From assembly GCA_015069575.1 (NCBI GenBank), contig SVIH01000010.1, positions 1 through 64,000 of the forward strand: a stretch of DNA of 64,000 nt, written 5' to 3'. How positions within the stretch are numbered: position 1 is the first letter of the stretch; each line of letters begins with the position of its first letter. The stretch is from Clostridiales bacterium (GTDB taxonomy: Bacteria; Bacillota; Clostridia; Christensenellales; QALW01). This document shows positions 22,890 to 46,658 of this stretch, one piece after another. Below the pieces are notes generated by a model. It had not been told where the DNA came from, searched no databases, and was given only the letters and a program-made list of their open reading frames with translations. A program made the position numbers and the translations under genes.

Positions 22890-24227
22890 TTATTCGCCCT
22901 TTAAACGCATAGTAATATCTTCAATGCAGTTTTTAATTTCGATATCTGTTTTAAGGGCAGTGCGAATCTTACCTATACCATTAATAATGGTTGCATGATC
23001 GCGGCCATTAAACTCATCACCGATTCGTTTATTGGAAAGGGAAGTAAGTTCACGGCATAAATAATATGCAATGTGCCTTGGCTGAACAATTGGTTTATCA
23101 CGCCTTGGGCCAAGAATATCTTCGGGTGTAATATTAAAATATTCAGCAACGGTACTGATTATCATTTCAGAGGTACAATGCTTTTGTATTTCTGCATTAT
23201 AATCCCTTAAAACTTTCCCTGCAAGATCTATCGTGATAGGTTGCCCTGTAGTTGAAGCAAAAACTGTTATACGCTTTAATGCGCCTTCAAGTTCCCTGAC
23301 ATTATCACTGGCTCTTTCTGCTATAAACAGCAAAATGCTATCATCAATGTCAATCTTATCAATTTCTGCTTTTTTGCGCAGAATTGCTGCGCGTGTTTCA
23401 AGGTCAGGGGGAGTAATATCCACAAGTAAGCCGCCTTCAAAACGAGAGCAAAGCCTGTCAGAAAGAGTCTGAATACTCTTAGGCGGACGGTCACTTGAAA
23501 GAATTATCTGTTTATTTGAAGCAAAAAGGTCATTAATATTATGGAATATTTCTTCCTGTGTATGTTCTTTTTTGGTTAAGAACTGAACATCGTCAATCAT
23601 TAAAACATCAACATTTTCACGATACTTGTCCCTGAAAGCATCTATCTGATGTTTAGAAACTGAACGAATATATTCGTTTGTATATTTTTCACAAGTAATG
23701 TAAAGAACTTTAGTATCGGGTTTGTATTTTAAAATGTGGTTGCCGATTGCATGCATAAGGTGTGTTTTACCTAATCCTACACCACCATAAATAAATAATG
23801 GGTTGTTGATGGTTGCAGGTGCTTCAGCAACGCTTAATGCGGCAGCAAAAGCAAACTGGTTACCCGAACCAATAACAAAATTTTCAAAAGTATAACGCTC
23901 GTTAAGCATTGGATAGGGAATAGATGCTTTAGGCTGCAAAGTTGTATCAATAATTGCAGGAGCTTCGCTTTCTAAAACAAGCACAATATCTGCACCCGGT
24001 GAATCAAGCACAATATTAAGGGCTGAAACCAGATAGGCATGCATCATAGTAACAGTCATTAAATGGCGCCTGTGTGTATCAGAAGGTGTTATTAAATATA
24101 ATGTATTATCTTTAAAGGTAAGGGGTTTTAATGTAGCAATGAATGTTTTATATGAAATAGGATTAATATCCTGTGGTGATTGTTCAAGAATAGAACATAT
24201 CTTTTGAAAAAGTTCACTTGCGTCCAT
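22890..24227 (-). CDS. dnaA: Chromosomal replication initiator protein DnaA
   Basis: The 445-residue AAA+ protein opens the origin. Domain I (about 1-85) binds helicase and regulators; domain II is short. Domain III shows Walker A GGVGLGKTHLMHAIGN, Walker B VDVLMIDDVQFL, sensor 1 (ILSSDRPP) and the arginine-finger region SRFEGG. Domain IV carries the DnaA-box reader GPRRDKPIVQPRHIAYYLCRELT and the signature GRDHATIINGIGKI. ATG 24227 is preceded by GGAAGGAGG. The -35 of its promoter overlaps a DnaA-box-like site, consistent with autoregulation. Confidence 0.97.
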   Translation of the reverse strand: MDASELFQKICSILEQSPQDINPISYKTFIATLKPLTFKDNTLYLITPSDTHRRHLMTVTMMHAYLVSALNIVLDSPGADIVLVLESEAPAIIDTTLQPKASIPYPMLNERYTFENFVIGSGNQFAFAAALSVAEAPATINNPLFIYGGVGLGKTHLMHAIGNHILKYKPDTKVLYITCEKYTNEYIRSVSKHQIDAFRDKYRENVDVLMIDDVQFLTKKEHTQEEIFHNINDLFASNKQIILSSDRPPKSIQTLSDRLCSRFEGGLLVDITPPDLETRAAILRKKAEIDKIDIDDSILLFIAERASDNVRELEGALKRITVFASTTGQPITIDLAGKVLRDYNAEIQKHCTSEMIISTVAEYFNITPEDILGPRRDKPIVQPRHIAYYLCRELTSLSNKRIGDEFNGRDHATIINGIGKIRTALKTDIEIKNCIEDITMRLKGE

Positions 24228-37454: not shown

Positions 37455-38222
37455 TTATTTTAACCTTTCGCCTGTCTGGGCGTTAATATAAATTACCCAA
37501 AGACCTTTATTTTGCGGGTCCGAACAATCAAGTGGAATCCATTGTGAGTAGCCTTCAAGTTTTTTAGGCGGATCTTCACTCCAACCTAAATCAAAACCGT
37601 AACAAATATAAAGGGGAATGTTATTTTCATCGTATATTATGCCAAAAGTATAGTTTTCCTCTAGAACATCAACCCATTTTGATTCGGGAATAAGTGCCAT
37701 AAGCGATTCATTTACAGGATTGTTATATAAAAGGTCGTTGAATTTTTCCTTGTTGCAATCGAAAAACGAGTTTGGTATTTCTGCGGGGGGGTGAATAAAT
37801 TCTTCAGGCAAAACATAGCCTGTTTCTTTATATTCAGGCTCTTTTTTTTCAGCAACAATTTCTTCGTTAAATATATCAGGCTCTGTTTCAGAATCAATTT
37901 GTTCTATAATGTTATCTTTTATTTCTAAACCCATCTGCTTTTTTAATTCTTTTTTTATAATTGCTTGGTCACCGGTAAAAAGCGTTAAAACAGCATAATC
38001 ATCTTTAATTAAAAAAATTCCTGCGTTTTTAGGAAATTTTTCATATAAAAAGCGGCAATGATTCATTTCATATAATTCTTTTAATGTAGAATCGCATAAT
38101 AAAATGTATTTGCCTTTTTCACCTTTAAATGCAACGGTTAAAGTTTTTCCATCTTCCAGTTTTATAAAGCCTTCTTCAACTGTATCAGTTAGTTTGTTAA
38201 GAATAATTAATTTATCAGTCAT
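37455..38222 (-). CDS. Hypothetical protein, two domains with acidic linker
   Basis: The 255-residue cytoplasmic protein has an N-terminal beta-rich domain (about 1-100, TLTVAFKGEKGKYILLC), an acidic linker (105-150) and a C-terminal domain with the aromatic, proline-rich stretch ICYGFDLGWSEDPPKKLEGY, then SQWIPLDCSDPQNKGLWVIYINAQTGERL. I do not recognise the family. Its start overlaps the stop of the amidotransferase-like gene (ATGA), so the two are translationally coupled. Confidence 0.6.
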   Translation of the reverse strand: MTDKLIILNKLTDTVEEGFIKLEDGKTLTVAFKGEKGKYILLCDSTLKELYEMNHCRFLYEKFPKNAGIFLIKDDYAVLTLFTGDQAIIKKELKKQMGLEIKDNIIEQIDSETEPDIFNEEIVAEKKEPEYKETGYVLPEEFIHPPAEIPNSFFDCNKEKFNDLLYNNPVNESLMALIPESKWVDVLEENYTFGIIYDENNIPLYICYGFDLGWSEDPPKKLEGYSQWIPLDCSDPQNKGLWVIYINAQTGERLK

Positions 38223-38803
38223 TTTTTACACCTCATTAATGTATATTTAAAGTTATTTAAAATTATGCGGTCATTAAGCCTTTCGGGATGAAATTGGCAT
38301 AATATTATGTTATGGTTTACTGCAAGTTCAATGCAATCACCGTAATAACCCACAACTTCAAAAGAAGGCGCAAGTTTATCTATTGCCTGATGATGCTTTG
38401 AATTAACAAGAAAACTTCTTTTACAGGTAAATAACGGATGAAAAACATCGTTTTCACCAATGTGCATATGTGCATTATTAAGATCTTTCAGCGTTCCACC
38501 CATAAATATATTAATTATCTGTGCACCGCGGCAAATTGCAAGAACAGGCATATGTTTTGCTTTTGAAAAAAGAAAAAACTCAAAAACATCTCGTAAAGCG
38601 TTGTTTCCATTACCTGTTTTAGTGGAGGAATAAAACCAATATTTTATGTCGCCACCGCCTGTAAAAATAATTCCGCTGCATTTTTCTAATCGGTTTATGC
38701 GAAAAAAACGGTCAATAATAACAGGTTCAAAACCTGCCTGCTTTATCCACTTTATATAGTTGATTGGTATGGAATTTTTTTCACAGGTAACTGCTATCTT
38801 CAA
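38219..38803 (-). CDS. Class I glutamine amidotransferase-like protein (peptidase C26, PuuD-like)
   Basis: The 194-residue enzyme shows the triad of gamma-glutamyl hydrolases of the C26 family: nucleophile Cys in LAICRGAQIINIFMGG, His and Glu in CQFHPERL, with FTGGGDIKYW and the HHQAI motif of PuuD-type enzymes. It is somewhat short (PuuD-type enzymes are about 235-255). It may split gamma-glutamyl bonds of peptides or gamma-glutamyl-GABA; the substrate is unknown. ATG 38803 has no strong ribosome site (GGTGATAT). Confidence 0.75.
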   Translation of the reverse strand: MKIAVTCEKNSIPINYIKWIKQAGFEPVIIDRFFRINRLEKCSGIIFTGGGDIKYWFYSSTKTGNGNNALRDVFEFFLFSKAKHMPVLAICRGAQIINIFMGGTLKDLNNAHMHIGENDVFHPLFTCKRSFLVNSKHHQAIDKLAPSFEVVGYYGDCIELAVNHNIILCQFHPERLNDRIILNNFKYTLMRCKK

Positions 38804-38849
38804 TAAATATCACCGTTTAAATGTATGCGGTGTAATAAAAAAGTATACA

Positions 38850-38878
38850 AAAAAACCGACTTTATTAAGTCGGTTTTA
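38850..38878 (-). terminator. polC terminator
   Basis: AAAACCGACTT pairs with AAGTCGGTTTT around TATT; on the minus strand a T run follows. It starts two bases beyond the polC stop. Confidence 0.85.
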
Positions 38879-38880
38879 AG

Positions 38881-41800
38881 TTAAAAATCAAATAGTGAAA
38901 TCTGTTGGCTTTTTGGCAAATCCTTAAGACAACCACATTCATCAAGAGATTGCATTAAAGTTGAAGACAGTTTAGTTCTTAATAAAAGGTCATCTTGTGA
39001 TTTAAAAGGTTCTTCTTTTCTTGCCTGAACAATTGATTCTGCAGCAGTTTCACCTAATCCGGGAACAGCATTAAGGGGTGGACGAATAAGGTTATCTTCA
39101 GTAACGGTGAAATTCATTGCTTCAGAAGCATAAATATCAATGTTACAGAATTCAATTTTCCGCATCTTCATTTCAAGCACCATTTCAAGCATAACAATCT
39201 TTGCTTTATCTTTTGCAGTTAAAGAAGGCTGTTCGTGAAGGGATTTTAGTGCTTGGCGGATCTGGCTTGCAGTCATTCGCGCAATGCTGATTTCAAAATC
39301 GTCTGCACGCACCGTAAAGTATGTGGCATAATACTGATGAGGCTTATAAACTTTAAACCATGCAATTCTTAATGCCATGGTAACATATGCTGCAGCGTGC
39401 GCTTTAGGGAACATATATTTGATTTTGTTACAGGATTCAATAAACCACTCCGGAATACCGTGTTGGCGTATATGTTCAATGTATTTTTCAGGAATGCCTT
39501 TGCCTTTTCGCACTTTTTCCATAACGTCAAAGGATAAAAATGATTCGCAACCGTTAAGAATCAAAGTATTCATAATATCTTCACGGGTACAGATGCAACC
39601 TGAAATAGTGGTTGTACCGCTTGCAATAAGATCCTGGGCGTTGCCAACCCAAACGTCAGTTCCGTGCGAAAGTCCTGAAATTTTAACAAGGTCCGAAAAA
39701 GTTGTGGGTTTTGTTTCTTCAAGCATTTTTCTTGTGAACCCTGTGCCAAACTCGGGCACACCGTATGTTCCTGTCTGCGAACCGATATCATCAGCAGTTA
39801 CACCTAAAGGTGCAGGTGAAAGGAATAATTCCATAACTTTGGGATCATCAAGAGGTATATCTTCTTTTGCATTAATACCTGTAAGATCTTCAAGCATTCT
39901 GATAACTGTGGGGTCATCGTGGCCAAGAATATCTGCTTTTAAAAGGGTATCATGCAATGATTTAAATGTAAAATGGGTAGTGATAATACCTTGGCTTGGA
40001 TCGTTTGCAGGATACTGAAGCGGGGTAAAGTTGTTTATATCGTATGCTTTAGGAACAATAACTACACCGCCTGCGTGCTGGCCGGTAGTTCTTTTAACAT
40101 CAATACATCCTTGGCTCATTCTTAAAATTTCTGCCATAGGCGGTCTGCCAAGATTATATTCCTCGCAATATTTTTTAGCGTAACCAATAGCAGTTTTATC
40201 GGCAACGCCACCGATAGTTCCTGCCCTGAAAACATATTTATCGCCGAAAAGTTCTTCAATATATTTATGTACTACAGGCTGATAAGTACCTGAAAAGTTA
40301 AGGTCAATATCAGGAACTTTATCTCCATCAAAGCCCATAAAAACTTCAAAAGGAATATTAAAGCCAAGCCTTAAAAGTTCGGTATTGCAATGAGGACAGT
40401 TTTTCTTGGGCATATCAATACCGCAATCGTATTTTGTCATATCGATGTCAAAATCTGAATACTTACAGTTGGGGCAAACATAGTGGGGCTGAAGCGGATT
40501 AACTTCAGTAATATCGGCCATTGTTGCGGCAAATGAAGAACCAACAGAACCACGGGAACCAACAAGGTAACCATCACTTAGCGACTTTTTAACAACTTTA
40601 TGGGCAATTAAATAAAGCACTGAATATCCGTTTTTAATAATAGAAGTCAGTTCTCGTTCAAGCCTCTTTGCAACAATTTCGGGTAAAGGATCGCCATAAA
40701 GTTTACGGGCATTTTCTTCACACATTTGCCTTAAATCTTCATCAGCATTTTCCATTTCAGGCGTGTAAAGATGGTCTCTTGGGAAAGATTCCATTTTTTC
40801 GCAAAGATCTGCAACCATTCGTGGATTATCAATAACAATTTCCTTGCGCTTTTCTTCAGGCAGATAATAGAATTCCTCAAGCATTTCTTCTGTAGTGCGG
40901 TAATAAAGAGGCGCCTGATTATCTGCATCGGAATATCCTTCTGCGCATTGTATAATTGAACGGAAAATAGAATCTCTTTCTAAAAGATAGTGAACATCAC
41001 CTGTTGCAAGCACAGGCTTGTTTAATTTATCACCAAGTGCAATTATGCGCTTATTTAACTCAATTAAATGTTCTTTATCCCTGACTGTGCCTTCACGCAC
41101 AAGGAAATCATTATTGCCTAAGGGCTGAACTTCAAGGAAATCGTAAAATTCAGCTATTTTTTCAAGTTTTTCGTCTGTTGCGCCTCTTAACATTGCACGG
41201 TAAAGTTCGCCTGCTTCACATGCAGAAGCAATTAAAAGACCTTCCCTGTGCTTGATTAAAGAAGAACGGGGTATACGGGGGCGCTTGCGTTTTAAATGAT
41301 GCAAATGGGATTCAGTTACAAGTGAATAAAGGTTAAACAAACCTTTTTTGTTTTTTGCATAAAGAATGATATGATAACTTTCGCCACCGTCAACATTCAT
41401 TTCCTTATTTAAACCATCAACATCATAAATCTTTTTTTGTGCTAAAAGGTCAATAAGTTTATTAAGAATAACGCCTGTTATTTCCGCTTCTTTAAGGCAA
41501 TCAAAAATATCACCTGTTTTAATTTCAAGGGCGTCACAAACTTTATTGAATTTATTACTTTTAATATTAGGTACGATTTCCCTTGCGATGCGCAAAGTGT
41601 CAAGGCATGGCATATTTAAAGTCAGGCCTGCATCACTAAAGGCTGTGGTTAAAAACGCAGATGTGTTTACAGCGTTGTGGCAAACAAGAACGCTGTTGGC
41701 AGCATACTCATAAAATTCCTTTATAACTGTAGAAATTTCAGGAGCATTTTTAAGCATTTCGTTAGAAATATTTCTTTCAAATAAAACCTGATTATCAATT

Positions 41801-43056
41801 TCAATATGAGGGTTTATATATCTGTGGAAAGTTTTTTCCTGTAAAATTCCGTTTTCGATTATGCAAGCGCCAAGTTCATATATTTTACCTGTAAGTGCGC
41901 TTTCGTTGCTTGTACGGATAGAATAAACGCAGTAACGGATATTTTTAAGTAGTTTATCACCATCAACGCCTGAAAGAACAGGGTCATCATTTAAAAGGTA
42001 ACCTTCCATGCCTAAAATCAACTTGATATCGGCATTAAGTTTACCCATTGCCGCTTCCATATCAGTGTAAGCCTGAACAACACCGTGGTCAGTAATGGCA
42101 ACAGTATCGTGGCCATATTGAAGCATAAGTTTAACAAGTTCCTTTGCATCAACAACGCTGTCCATCTGGCTCATTTTTGTATGAAGATGCATTTCAATTC
42201 GCTTTTTAGGGGCATTATCTGTCTTTTTTTCTTGCTTTACAGAAATTATATTAAATGGACTGATAATAACTTCGTTCATAAAACTGTCATAAGCGCATTT
42301 ACCTTTAAGTGCAATATGACCACTAATAAGTTCATTTAAATTTTCTGCATCAGCAGAACTTAAAAATAATTTGCAGTTAATGGTTGAAGTGTAATCAGTT
42401 ACCGCAAAAGTAAAAATTATTTTTTTGCCTTCCTGTATAGGTTTCAGGTCTTTTGAAATTACATCACCCTCAATTAATACATTACCGCTGTATTCATTAA
42501 GGGTTTTTATGTTCACCGGATCTTTTACTTCAAAAAAACTACCATATATGGCGCGGCCGTCTTTTGAAAGTTTGCTTTCCTGTTTTTTCTTTGCTGTTTT
42601 TTTAGCGCCTTCGTATTTTTTTGCATTTTGCGCCGCTTGTTGTGAAAGTTCTTTCTGCCTTTTAAAATAGCGGTCCATGGCAGTTTCGTTAAGGTCCTCT
42701 TCAATAGATAAAACTACATCGTCTTCTTCGGGGATATCCTTTTCTTCAAAAGACGGAATAAAAATATCTTCATCGTCAGAGCTCCCGTCTTCGTTCTTAT
42801 CAAGAGTATCTTCGTTTAAAAGGTAATTTACAGAAAGTTTAACCGAGGCGGGAATAATGCTTTTTATTGCATTTTCAATAATTTCTTTTTTGTTGTCATC
42901 TAAAACTTCAAAACAGGTAAAATAAATCAGCCATGAATCACCGTCATCAGAAATCACAGCCTGATCAAATTCTATAATTTCTAAAATTTCGCTTTCAACT
43001 ACTGCTGATAACGCTTTAGAAAATTTTGAGTTTTTACCGTTCAAAGTTACTGACAT
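38881..43056 (-). CDS. polC: DNA polymerase III PolC-type, exonuclease site degenerate
   Basis: The 1391-residue main replicase is normal in length and order: N-terminal domain, OB fold (about 195-275), PHP domain split by the exonuclease (EMHLHTKMSQMD; ITDHGV), then the palm with GYLVGSRGSVGSS, zinc cysteines CPNCKYSDF...KNCPHC (about 855-890), VPDIDLNFSG and KYMFPKAHAAAY. The exonuclease region is present (about 370-540), but its acidic motifs are lost: FDxETTG reads YSIRTSN, HNASFDxxFL reads HNAVNTSAFL, and the HxxxxD end reads FDCLKEAE. Polymerase motifs are intact. ATG 43056 follows GGAGC; the start at 43095 is rejected. Confidence 0.95.
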   Translation of the reverse strand: MSVTLNGKNSKFSKALSAVVESEILEIIEFDQAVISDDGDSWLIYFTCFEVLDDNKKEIIENAIKSIIPASVKLSVNYLLNEDTLDKNEDGSSDDEDIFIPSFEEKDIPEEDDVVLSIEEDLNETAMDRYFKRQKELSQQAAQNAKKYEGAKKTAKKKQESKLSKDGRAIYGSFFEVKDPVNIKTLNEYSGNVLIEGDVISKDLKPIQEGKKIIFTFAVTDYTSTINCKLFLSSADAENLNELISGHIALKGKCAYDSFMNEVIISPFNIISVKQEKKTDNAPKKRIEMHLHTKMSQMDSVVDAKELVKLMLQYGHDTVAITDHGVVQAYTDMEAAMGKLNADIKLILGMEGYLLNDDPVLSGVDGDKLLKNIRYCVYSIRTSNESALTGKIYELGACIIENGILQEKTFHRYINPHIEIDNQVLFERNISNEMLKNAPEISTVIKEFYEYAANSVLVCHNAVNTSAFLTTAFSDAGLTLNMPCLDTLRIAREIVPNIKSNKFNKVCDALEIKTGDIFDCLKEAEITGVILNKLIDLLAQKKIYDVDGLNKEMNVDGGESYHIILYAKNKKGLFNLYSLVTESHLHHLKRKRPRIPRSSLIKHREGLLIASACEAGELYRAMLRGATDEKLEKIAEFYDFLEVQPLGNNDFLVREGTVRDKEHLIELNKRIIALGDKLNKPVLATGDVHYLLERDSIFRSIIQCAEGYSDADNQAPLYYRTTEEMLEEFYYLPEEKRKEIVIDNPRMVADLCEKMESFPRDHLYTPEMENADEDLRQMCEENARKLYGDPLPEIVAKRLERELTSIIKNGYSVLYLIAHKVVKKSLSDGYLVGSRGSVGSSFAATMADITEVNPLQPHYVCPNCKYSDFDIDMTKYDCGIDMPKKNCPHCNTELLRLGFNIPFEVFMGFDGDKVPDIDLNFSGTYQPVVHKYIEELFGDKYVFRAGTIGGVADKTAIGYAKKYCEEYNLGRPPMAEILRMSQGCIDVKRTTGQHAGGVVIVPKAYDINNFTPLQYPANDPSQGIITTHFTFKSLHDTLLKADILGHDDPTVIRMLEDLTGINAKEDIPLDDPKVMELFLSPAPLGVTADDIGSQTGTYGVPEFGTGFTRKMLEETKPTTFSDLVKISGLSHGTDVWVGNAQDLIASGTTTISGCICTREDIMNTLILNGCESFLSFDVMEKVRKGKGIPEKYIEHIRQHGIPEWFIESCNKIKYMFPKAHAAAYVTMALRIAWFKVYKPHQYYATYFTVRADDFEISIARMTASQIRQALKSLHEQPSLTAKDKAKIVMLEMVLEMKMRKIEFCNIDIYASEAMNFTVTEDNLIRPPLNAVPGLGETAAESIVQARKEEPFKSQDDLLLRTKLSSTLMQSLDECGCLKDLPKSQQISLFDF

Positions 43057-43307
43057 TTTTTTGCTCCAATAAAAATATATAATATATTTAAACATAATTT
43101 TATACTAGAGTCAAGTGCAAAAAACAAATAATAAACATATTAATCAGTGCGCATATATGCAAACGAAAGTTTTTTTATTCCCACAATGAAAATAGTAAAA
43201 ATTTTTATAAAAATTTGAAAATATTTGCATATTTGCTTGCCTAAAAACAAATAATGGTATAAAATAACAGATGTAAAAAATAATTTTTCTATATGGAGGA
43301 ATTTAAT

Positions 43308-44336
43308 ATGTCAGTAAAAGTTGCTATTAACGGTTTCGGACGTATCGGTCGTCTTGCTTTCCGCCAGATGTTTGGCGCAGAGGGTTATGAGGTTGTTGCT
43401 ATCAACGATCTTACCAGCCCTGACATGCTTGCACACCTTCTTAAGTATGATACCGCACAAGGTTCATACATGGGATATATCGGTGAAAACAAGCACACAG
43501 TTGAATCAACAGAAGATTCAATTATTGTTGACGGTAAAGAAATCAAAATCTATGCTTGCAAAGATGCTAATGACTGTCCTTGGGGTCAGCTTGGTGTAGA
43601 TGTAGTTCTTGAATGCACAGGTTTCTACTGCTCAAAAGAAAAATCAATGGCTCACATCAACGCAGGCGCAAAGAAGGTTGTTATTTCAGCTCCCGCTGGT
43701 AAAGACCTTAAAACAATCGTTTTCTCAGTAAACGAAGATACTCTTGATAAAGATGATCAGGTTATTTCAGCTGCATCTTGCACAACAAACTGCCTTGCAC
43801 CTATGGCAAAGGCTCTTAACGATTACGCAGCAATCCAGTCAGGTATTATGACAACTGTTCACGCTTACACAGGCGATCAGATGATCTTAGACGGTCCTCA
43901 CCGCAAGGGTGACCTTCGCCGTGCTCGTGCAGGCGCACAGAACATTGTTCCCAACTCAACAGGTGCTGCAAAGGCTATCGGTCTTGTAATTCCTGAACTT
44001 AACGGCAAGCTTATCGGTTCAGCACAGCGTGTTCCCACCTGCACAGGTTCAACAACAATCCTCGTTGCAGTTGTTAAGGGTACAGATGTTACAGTTGATG
44101 GCATCAATGCTGCTATGAAGGCTGCTGCTTCAGATTCATTCGGCTACAACGAAGAAGCTATCGTATCTTCAGACGTTATCGGTATGCGTTACGGTTCACT
44201 CTTTGATGCAACACAGACAATGGTTGCTAAGATTGACGAAGATACTTATCAGGTACAGGTTGTTTCCTGGTATGATAACGAAAACTCATACACCAGCCAG
44301 ATGGTTCGCACAATTAAGTACTTTGCAGAACTTTAA
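43308..44336 (+). CDS. gap: Glyceraldehyde-3-phosphate dehydrogenase (type I)
   Basis: The 342-residue glycolytic enzyme shows the NAD fold [19 protein letters not shown], the catalytic Cys in [13 protein letters not shown], His in [10 protein letters not shown] and the end [22 protein letters not shown] 43308 follows GGAGG; the in-frame ATG 43293 overlaps that ribosome site. Codon use is strongly biased, with few rare codons, as expected of a highly expressed gene. An extended -10 (TGGTATAAA, 43255-43263) is the likely promoter. The rest of 43096-43292 is AT-rich with nothing else clear. Confidence 0.96.
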
Positions 44337-45795: not shown

Positions 45796-46167
45796 ATGGC
45801 AAATTACATCGATTCAAACGAAGGTAAAACAAGAATAATACAGGAATTAGTTCCGGGCAAACAGATAACATTAGCTCACATTATTGCTAATCCTGATATT
45901 GAAATATATGAAAAACTTGGTCTTGACCCTGCTGACGATCACACAGGCGCTATCGGCATTATTACAATGAGTCCTGCTGAAACCGCAATTATTGCTGCTG
46001 ACCTTGCAACCAAATCTTCAGGGGTTGAACTTGGCTTTGTTGACAGGTTTTCAGGCACATTAATTGTAACAGGTACCGTTTCTCAGGTGGAAGCATCAGT
46101 TCACGCAGTAAGCGAATATGCAGAAAACACCCTTCACTTTTCAGTTTGCCCTATAACTAAAACATGA
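45796..46167 (+). CDS. Microcompartment shell protein, PduU/EutS-like (permuted BMC-H)
   Basis: The 123-residue shell protein has the circularly permuted BMC fold: an N-terminal tail and strand (RIIQELVPGKQITLAHIIANP) that forms the small beta-barrel cap of PduU/EutS hexamers, then GAIGIITMSPAETAIIAADLATKSSGVELGFVDR and the turn SGTLIVTGTVSQVEASV. It would make a hexameric shell tile with a plugged pore. ATG 45796 opens the locus and its end overlaps the next gene (ATGA). Confidence 0.9.
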   Translation: MANYIDSNEGKTRIIQELVPGKQITLAHIIANPDIEIYEKLGLDPADDHTGAIGIITMSPAETAIIAADLATKSSGVELGFVDRFSGTLIVTGTVSQVEASVHAVSEYAENTLHFSVCPITKT

Positions 46168-46658
46168 ACAAAGTAATTCTTTTAGGTAGAAGTGGCGCAG
46201 GCAAAACAACACTTACCCAGGCATTAAAAGGTGAAGAAATACATTATGCCAAAACACAGGATGTTAAAAACGGCAGTTTTATGATAGATACACCCGGGGA
46301 ATACATACAGGAAAGGCATCTTGGCGGCGCGGTGGCAGTGTTTGTTTACGAATCAGATATTGTTGGGCTTTTAATGAGCGCAGACGAACCTTATAGTTTG
46401 TACTCACCTAATATAACAGGAATGTGCAACCGCTATGTTATCGGCATAGTAACAGGCATAGATAAAGAAAAGGCAAATATACCCCGTGTAACCAACTGGC
46501 TTAAACTTGCAGGGGTGCAAAAAATATTTTATGTTTCCTCGCTAACGGGGGAAGGCATACAGGAACTAAAAGAATTTTTGCGTGATTTTGATCCTAAAAA
46601 AGAAAAAGCGCGCAAAAAAGCAGAACTAAAAAGGTTAAAATATCCAAATTTGGTCTAA
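46164..46658 (+). CDS. Microcompartment-associated GTPase, PduV/EutP-like
   Basis: The 164-residue Ras-like protein shows P-loop GRSGAGKTTL, the switch region with IDTPGEY, and GIDKEKAN in the place of NKxD, followed by VSSLTGEGIQEL. PduV binds the PduU shell protein and is thought to help compartments move or localise; pairing with the PduU/EutS-like gene fits. A basic tail (KKEKARKKAELKRLK) ends it. Start and stop codons overlap the preceding gene. Confidence 0.85.
   Translation: MNKVILLGRSGAGKTTLTQALKGEEIHYAKTQDVKNGSFMIDTPGEYIQERHLGGAVAVFVYESDIVGLLMSADEPYSLYSPNITGMCNRYVIGIVTGIDKEKANIPRVTNWLKLAGVQKIFYVSSLTGEGIQELKEFLRDFDPKKEKARKKAELKRLKYPNLV

Follow-up and report, generated by a model that had tools for sequence, protein, structure and literature searches.

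A Clostridia PolC replicase that retains its DnaQ-like exonuclease insert without the DEDDh residues

PolC is generally assumed to need its DnaQ domain for fidelity, and a PolC in which the catalytic residues of this domain are missing raises the question of what, if anything, corrects the errors of the replicase. Such a gene lies in the window analysed here, which spans 64,000 nucleotides of a Clostridiales contig (SVIH01000010.1). The longest PolC ORF (38881-43095, minus strand) encodes a protein of 1404 aa, hereafter P0001. Its likelier start is the ATG at 43056, which corresponds to M14 of this ORF and has a TTGGAGC just upstream, and the polC gene was accordingly delineated as 38881..43056 (-). 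Residues are numbered here as per the 1404-aa ORF, and subtraction of 13 gives the numbering from the ATG at 43056; the coordinates and residue numbers of the original prediction are right. P0001 passes the full-length PolC profiles NF001688 of NCBIfam (1555 bits, cutoff 873) and TIGR01405 (1434 bits, cutoff 1043), and shows an N-terminal domain (NTD), an OB domain, a PHP domain interrupted by the exonuclease insert, the polymerase, an HhH region and a C-terminal clamp motif, in that order. The N-terminal part of the PHP domain (41980..42207, -) supplies the ligands H303, H305, D312, H337 and E364, and its C-terminal part (40816..41388, -) supplies H575, C626, D700 and H702, with H575 being placed as the sixth ligand by its spacing to C626. 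Thus, the PHP metal ligands are complete (HHDHEHCDH, 9/9). The two CxxC pairs of the zinc motif CPNC...CPHC (40387..40476, -), whose four cysteines are invariant across 136 aligned PolCs, the polymerase acids in PDIDLNF (40294..40314, -) and the sliding-clamp motif QISLF (38890..38904, -) are also kept, which bears out the earlier view that the polymerase, PHP and zinc motifs are intact. There is no second intact PolC among the matches in the genome of the window (G000), where the remaining PolC matches belong to DnaE1.

Within the interval 37455-43095 (-), two genes follow polC, one for a peptidase C26 and one with no Pfam match; polC is divergent from a GAPDH gene (43293-44336, +), and the arrangement is kept in a genus mate (G001, locus L016). 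Further along, a BMC shell protein and a PduV/EutP-like gene (45796-46658, +) mark the start of a microcompartment-type cluster. The dnaA gene (22890-24227, -) lies about 15 kb from polC, and the GC skew near it shows no clear switch.

The DnaQ-like insert (41440..41940, -), a proofreading domain of the Mg type, was compared in an alignment of 136 PolC sequences: P0001 and 135 others, drawn from the host's order and from named Clostridia. At each of the five DEDDh positions, 127-131 of the 136 sequences carry the wild-type residue, and P0001 is changed at all five (S392, R394, T478, F531 and E536). At the ExoI site (41905..41925, -) YSIRTSN stands in place of FDxETTG, with D replaced by S392 and E by R394; at ExoII (41662..41679, -) HNAVNT stands in place of HNASFD, with D replaced by T478; and at ExoIII (41488..41505, -) FDCLKE stands in place of HRAxxD, with H replaced by F531 and D by E536. 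The three losses that had been read from P0001 (YSIRTSN, HNAVNT and FxxxxE) were hence all recovered in the multiple alignment. Alignment with a PolC of known structure, which had been proposed as a check, was run with phmmer against the full-length Enterococcus faecium PolC (9qpc) and gave the same register. Given that the sequence and profile registers agree and that the structural model described below superposes on solved DnaQ folds, we consider it unlikely that the catalytic acids are hidden elsewhere in the domain by misalignment. The corresponding residues in the genus mate G001 (L003/L016), an independent metagenome-assembled genome with an intact ORF, are S, R, S, T and E, which is the same class of loss. 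An annotation or assembly artefact was likewise rejected, as the two independent assemblies have intact ORFs, differing replacement residues, a normal insert length and alignment throughout. This constellation of substitutions suggests that the exonuclease domain of this PolC is devoid of catalytic activity.

The domain itself persists. The counted span of the insert is 198 residues, and most intact PolCs have 194-198. An AlphaFold model of the PHP and exonuclease regions (mean pLDDT 94) aligned end to end with cryo-EM structures of PolC (E. faecium 9qpc, Z 40.9 over 466 residues), and its exonuclease part matched the E. coli epsilon subunit 2gui (Z 21.3, 1.9 A over 164 residues). The insert therefore sits in the usual place and at the usual length within PHP, as was originally described, and is predicted to keep the RNase H-like DnaQ fold. 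P0001 and its genus mate share 53% of residues in the exonuclease domain, where third codon positions are saturated, and 82% in the polymerase part, suggesting that the former is still constrained, though far less so than the latter. The conservation of the exonuclease domain in this genus pair falls below that of all 102 exonuclease-intact pairs with a matched polymerase identity, although these pairs are not independent of each other.

We used three-way relative-rate tests to compare either P0001 or the genus-mate sequence (L003) with the exonuclease-intact PolC of a sister genus (G004), with four outgroups. Changes in the exonuclease domain were distributed 45:14, 39:18, 49:17 and 47:15 between P0001 and the sister genus, and 40:13, 35:18, 46:20 and 45:15 between L003 and the sister genus, amounting to an acceleration of about 2-3:1 (P of 6e-5 to 0.03 across the four outgroups and two species). 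The PHP domain evolved at about 1:1 for three outgroups and at 1.5-1.9:1 for the fourth (32:17 or 37:24), the polymerase part at about 1.2-2:1, and DnaE1 showed no consistent difference from the sister genus. The strong acceleration of the exonuclease domain, the near-parity of PHP for three outgroups and the inconsistent signal of DnaE1 together indicate that relaxation has mostly affected the exonuclease domain; we rejected a fast clock across the whole genome of this genus, as DnaE1 does not show one. The remaining role of the exonuclease domain would be structural, as a pseudo-exonuclease held inside PHP.

The sister genus has intact motifs (FDLETTG, HNAEFD and HHRAIND in L010). The two dead sequences group together in the PolC tree with an SH-aLRT of 100, and the sister-genus sequence is the next branch (99). 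Given that both genus members are dead and the sister genus is intact, the simplest reading is a single loss on the stem of the genus. Two further members of the family (G002, G003) gave no PolC match, in genomes that are only 70-73% complete. Across the order of the host, 47 of the 56 PolCs are exonuclease-intact. Beyond the genus pair, there is a clade of four strongly eroded exonuclease domains in family f10 (L136, L141, L145 and L146, with apparent D/E letters in the last two that depend on the alignment) and one eroded domain in family f29 (L143). Single changes were also seen in f21 (ExoII D to E, L105) and in another f10 sequence (ExoI D to Y, L122). Parsimony on the PolC tree yields five changes, three of them deep erosions, so that the order holds at least two deep erosions beyond that of the genus pair. 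Among other Clostridia loci, a non-random set of best matches to the query, 78 of the 79 PolCs are exonuclease-intact and one is a masked sequence; an apparent ExoIII loss in the latter (L069) was rejected, as it is due to masking and not to a deletion.

What, then, could proofread? The PHP domain is intact in all but five of the 136 PolCs; every exonuclease-changed PolC retains 9/9 ligands and the five PHP-changed PolCs are all exonuclease-intact, in counts too small for significance. Since PHP is normally intact in the compared PolCs, its integrity here does not represent a specific response to the loss of the exonuclease. The DnaE1 of Mycobacterium tuberculosis, with nine intact PHP ligands, is an active zinc-dependent 3'-5' exonuclease, and the Geobacillus kaustophilus PolC, with one ligand changed, is without PHP exonuclease activity (PMC5636811). 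The active signature HHDHEH[C/H]DH used in a recent survey (PMC12926913) is matched by the HHDHEHCDH of this PolC. Speaking against PHP proofreading, B. subtilis with a mutated PolC exonuclease is a mutator (PMC11890065), though in Bacilli-type systems the PHP is often inactive (PMC12926913). The presence in P0001 of an intact signature that is active in M. tuberculosis DnaE1 favors proofreading by PHP, and by this analogy the PHP site would most likely be the working proofreader of the enzyme. Furthermore, PolCs without the exonuclease insert exist, constituting 6% of PolCs and occurring in Clostridia and Negativicutes (PMC3919608), which indicates that the exonuclease domain is dispensable.

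The original prediction held that proofreading is either supplied elsewhere, by the PHP site or a separate DnaQ-like protein, or that the lineage replicates with reduced fidelity. The first of these options is favored by the 9/9 ligands, and the second is weakened by the genome search: in G000, a draft of 1.59 Mb that is 95.6% complete, the sole match to the RNase_T fold is the dead PolC domain, and no other DnaQ-family exonuclease was found. The same prediction had called for a search for DnaE, and DnaE1 was indeed recovered with its PHP intact. All nine ligands are present in DnaE1 of both G000 and G001 (the first ligand being scored as one of three His in HxHxH, all three of which are present). 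Apart from PolC and DnaE1, the PHP matches of G000 are short ORFs (260-342 aa), and therefore none of these is of PolX size. MutS is also present.

It is still conceivable that a separate exonuclease acting in trans was missed, either because it lies in the unassembled 4% or because it is too diverged. G001 encodes a DnaQ-like protein of 177 aa whose DEDDh residues are intact (L171:1477-2007, -), other DnaQ-like ORFs occur in the exonuclease-dead genomes of family f10, and, as detailed below, PolC-less relatives have a separate PolC-derived exonuclease. However, the G001 protein has no counterpart among the G000 matches, where the dead domain stands alone, and we regard this explanation as quite unlikely. 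We also considered that the PolC of this genus might do without any proofreading, with base selection and MutS/MutL handling errors and the mutation rate being raised. The lost site, the failure to find a separate DnaQ in G000, the presence of MutS and the small genome (1.6 Mb) would all fit. Against this, the complete PHP site is unaccelerated for three of the four outgroups, GAPDH is 95% identical between the genus members and DnaE1, as weak evidence, is not consistently faster than in the sister genus, and we hold a PolC free of proofreading to be unlikely.

The reading that we prefer, by a slight inclination over its not being so, is that of a single PolC replicase that lost DEDDh catalysis on the stem of the genus, kept the dead domain as a structural pseudo-exonuclease within PHP, and most likely proofreads through PHP. 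Under this proposal, what error correction remains would come from the zinc PHP site of PolC; the PHP of DnaE1, which is also intact, and mismatch repair through MutS would act alongside it.

In many families of the order we found no PolC. The PolC-less genomes sampled encode a protein, mostly of 500-560 aa (about 520 aa), with the architecture NTD-OB-[QxxLF]-DEDDh, as exemplified by L188:1498-3060 (-) and L187:1504-3027 (+), with further cases in L189, L190 and other loci up to L216. Its N-terminal 310 residues match the PolC NTD and OB (hhalign probability 99.6%, E 1e-23 with aligned members), its C-terminal exonuclease is closest to that of PolC in the three members scanned, and the scanned members have neither a PHP nor a polymerase domain. 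Every one of the 30 aligned members has D, E, D, H and D at the catalytic positions, and a QxxLF-like, clamp-like motif occurs in most of the linkers viewed. By a hand count, the protein is present in 60 PolC-less genomes and in 0 of 39 genomes with PolC, though these genomes are related. By its sequence features, this protein appears to be a PolC reduced to its proofreading half, which probably serves DnaE1; its exonuclease looks active, and the loss of PHP and polymerase would be reciprocal to the loss in the exonuclease-dead PolC. Some members from families f15, f18 and f30 (for example, in G044, G018, G117 and G129) show a poor match, or none, in the exonuclease part, and this site may be eroding there too.

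The absence of PolC from many families also bears on the alternative that PolC has been demoted, with DnaE1 carrying out the bulk of synthesis, PolC on its way to being lost and its proofreading no longer under selection. One genome of the exonuclease-dead family f10 (G040, 96% complete) has neither PolC nor the NTD-OB-Exo remnant, even as its family relatives have exonuclease-dead PolCs, and in our genus the polymerase part has evolved slightly faster than that of the sister genus. Yet the polymerase and PHP parts remain about 80-82% identical between the two genus species with all catalytic, zinc and clamp motifs kept, and demotion appears very unlikely to us. With respect to the order as a whole, we give an even chance to the proposal that PolC has broken down in two opposite ways in these gut Clostridia, leaving either a polymerase with a dead DnaQ domain and PHP as the sole intrinsic proofreader, or an NTD-OB module with an active exonuclease that, as a protein of its own, binds the clamp and proofreads for DnaE1.

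P0001 shares with PolC-type Pol III from Bacillus subtilis, G. kaustophilus (3F2B) and E. faecium (9QPC) the NTD-OB-PHP(Exo insert)-Pol-HhH organization, zinc motif, polymerase acids, clamp motif and an end-to-end structural match, but differs from canonical PolC in having an exonuclease insert without any DEDDh residue, and from the G. kaustophilus enzyme, with its one changed PHP ligand (PMC5636811), in having a complete set. The PolCs lacking the insert (PMC3919608) are likewise without a working DnaQ site and paired with DnaE1, whereas P0001 has the insert at normal length and with a predicted fold. The exonuclease-dead PolC is thus an intermediate variant between the canonical and insert-less forms, and our searches of the open-access literature gave no description of such an insert-retaining form. 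M. tuberculosis DnaE1 has the same nine-ligand PHP signature (PMC5636811), but in a DnaE1 whose PHP has no DnaQ insert, unlike this PolC. Pol I orthologs and PolA2/APEX with an inactivated 3'-5' exonuclease (PMC12926913) similarly keep an inactive scaffold exonuclease in a DNA polymerase, though they are of the A-family and P0001 is a C-family replicase. According to that 2026 survey, it is the PHP and not the DnaQ domain that becomes inactivated in Pol III alpha subunits (PMC12926913), a rule that is broken repeatedly within this one order. These natural PHP-only PolCs offer a way to test both PHP proofreading in Clostridia-type PolC and the dispensability of the DnaQ insert when PHP is active.
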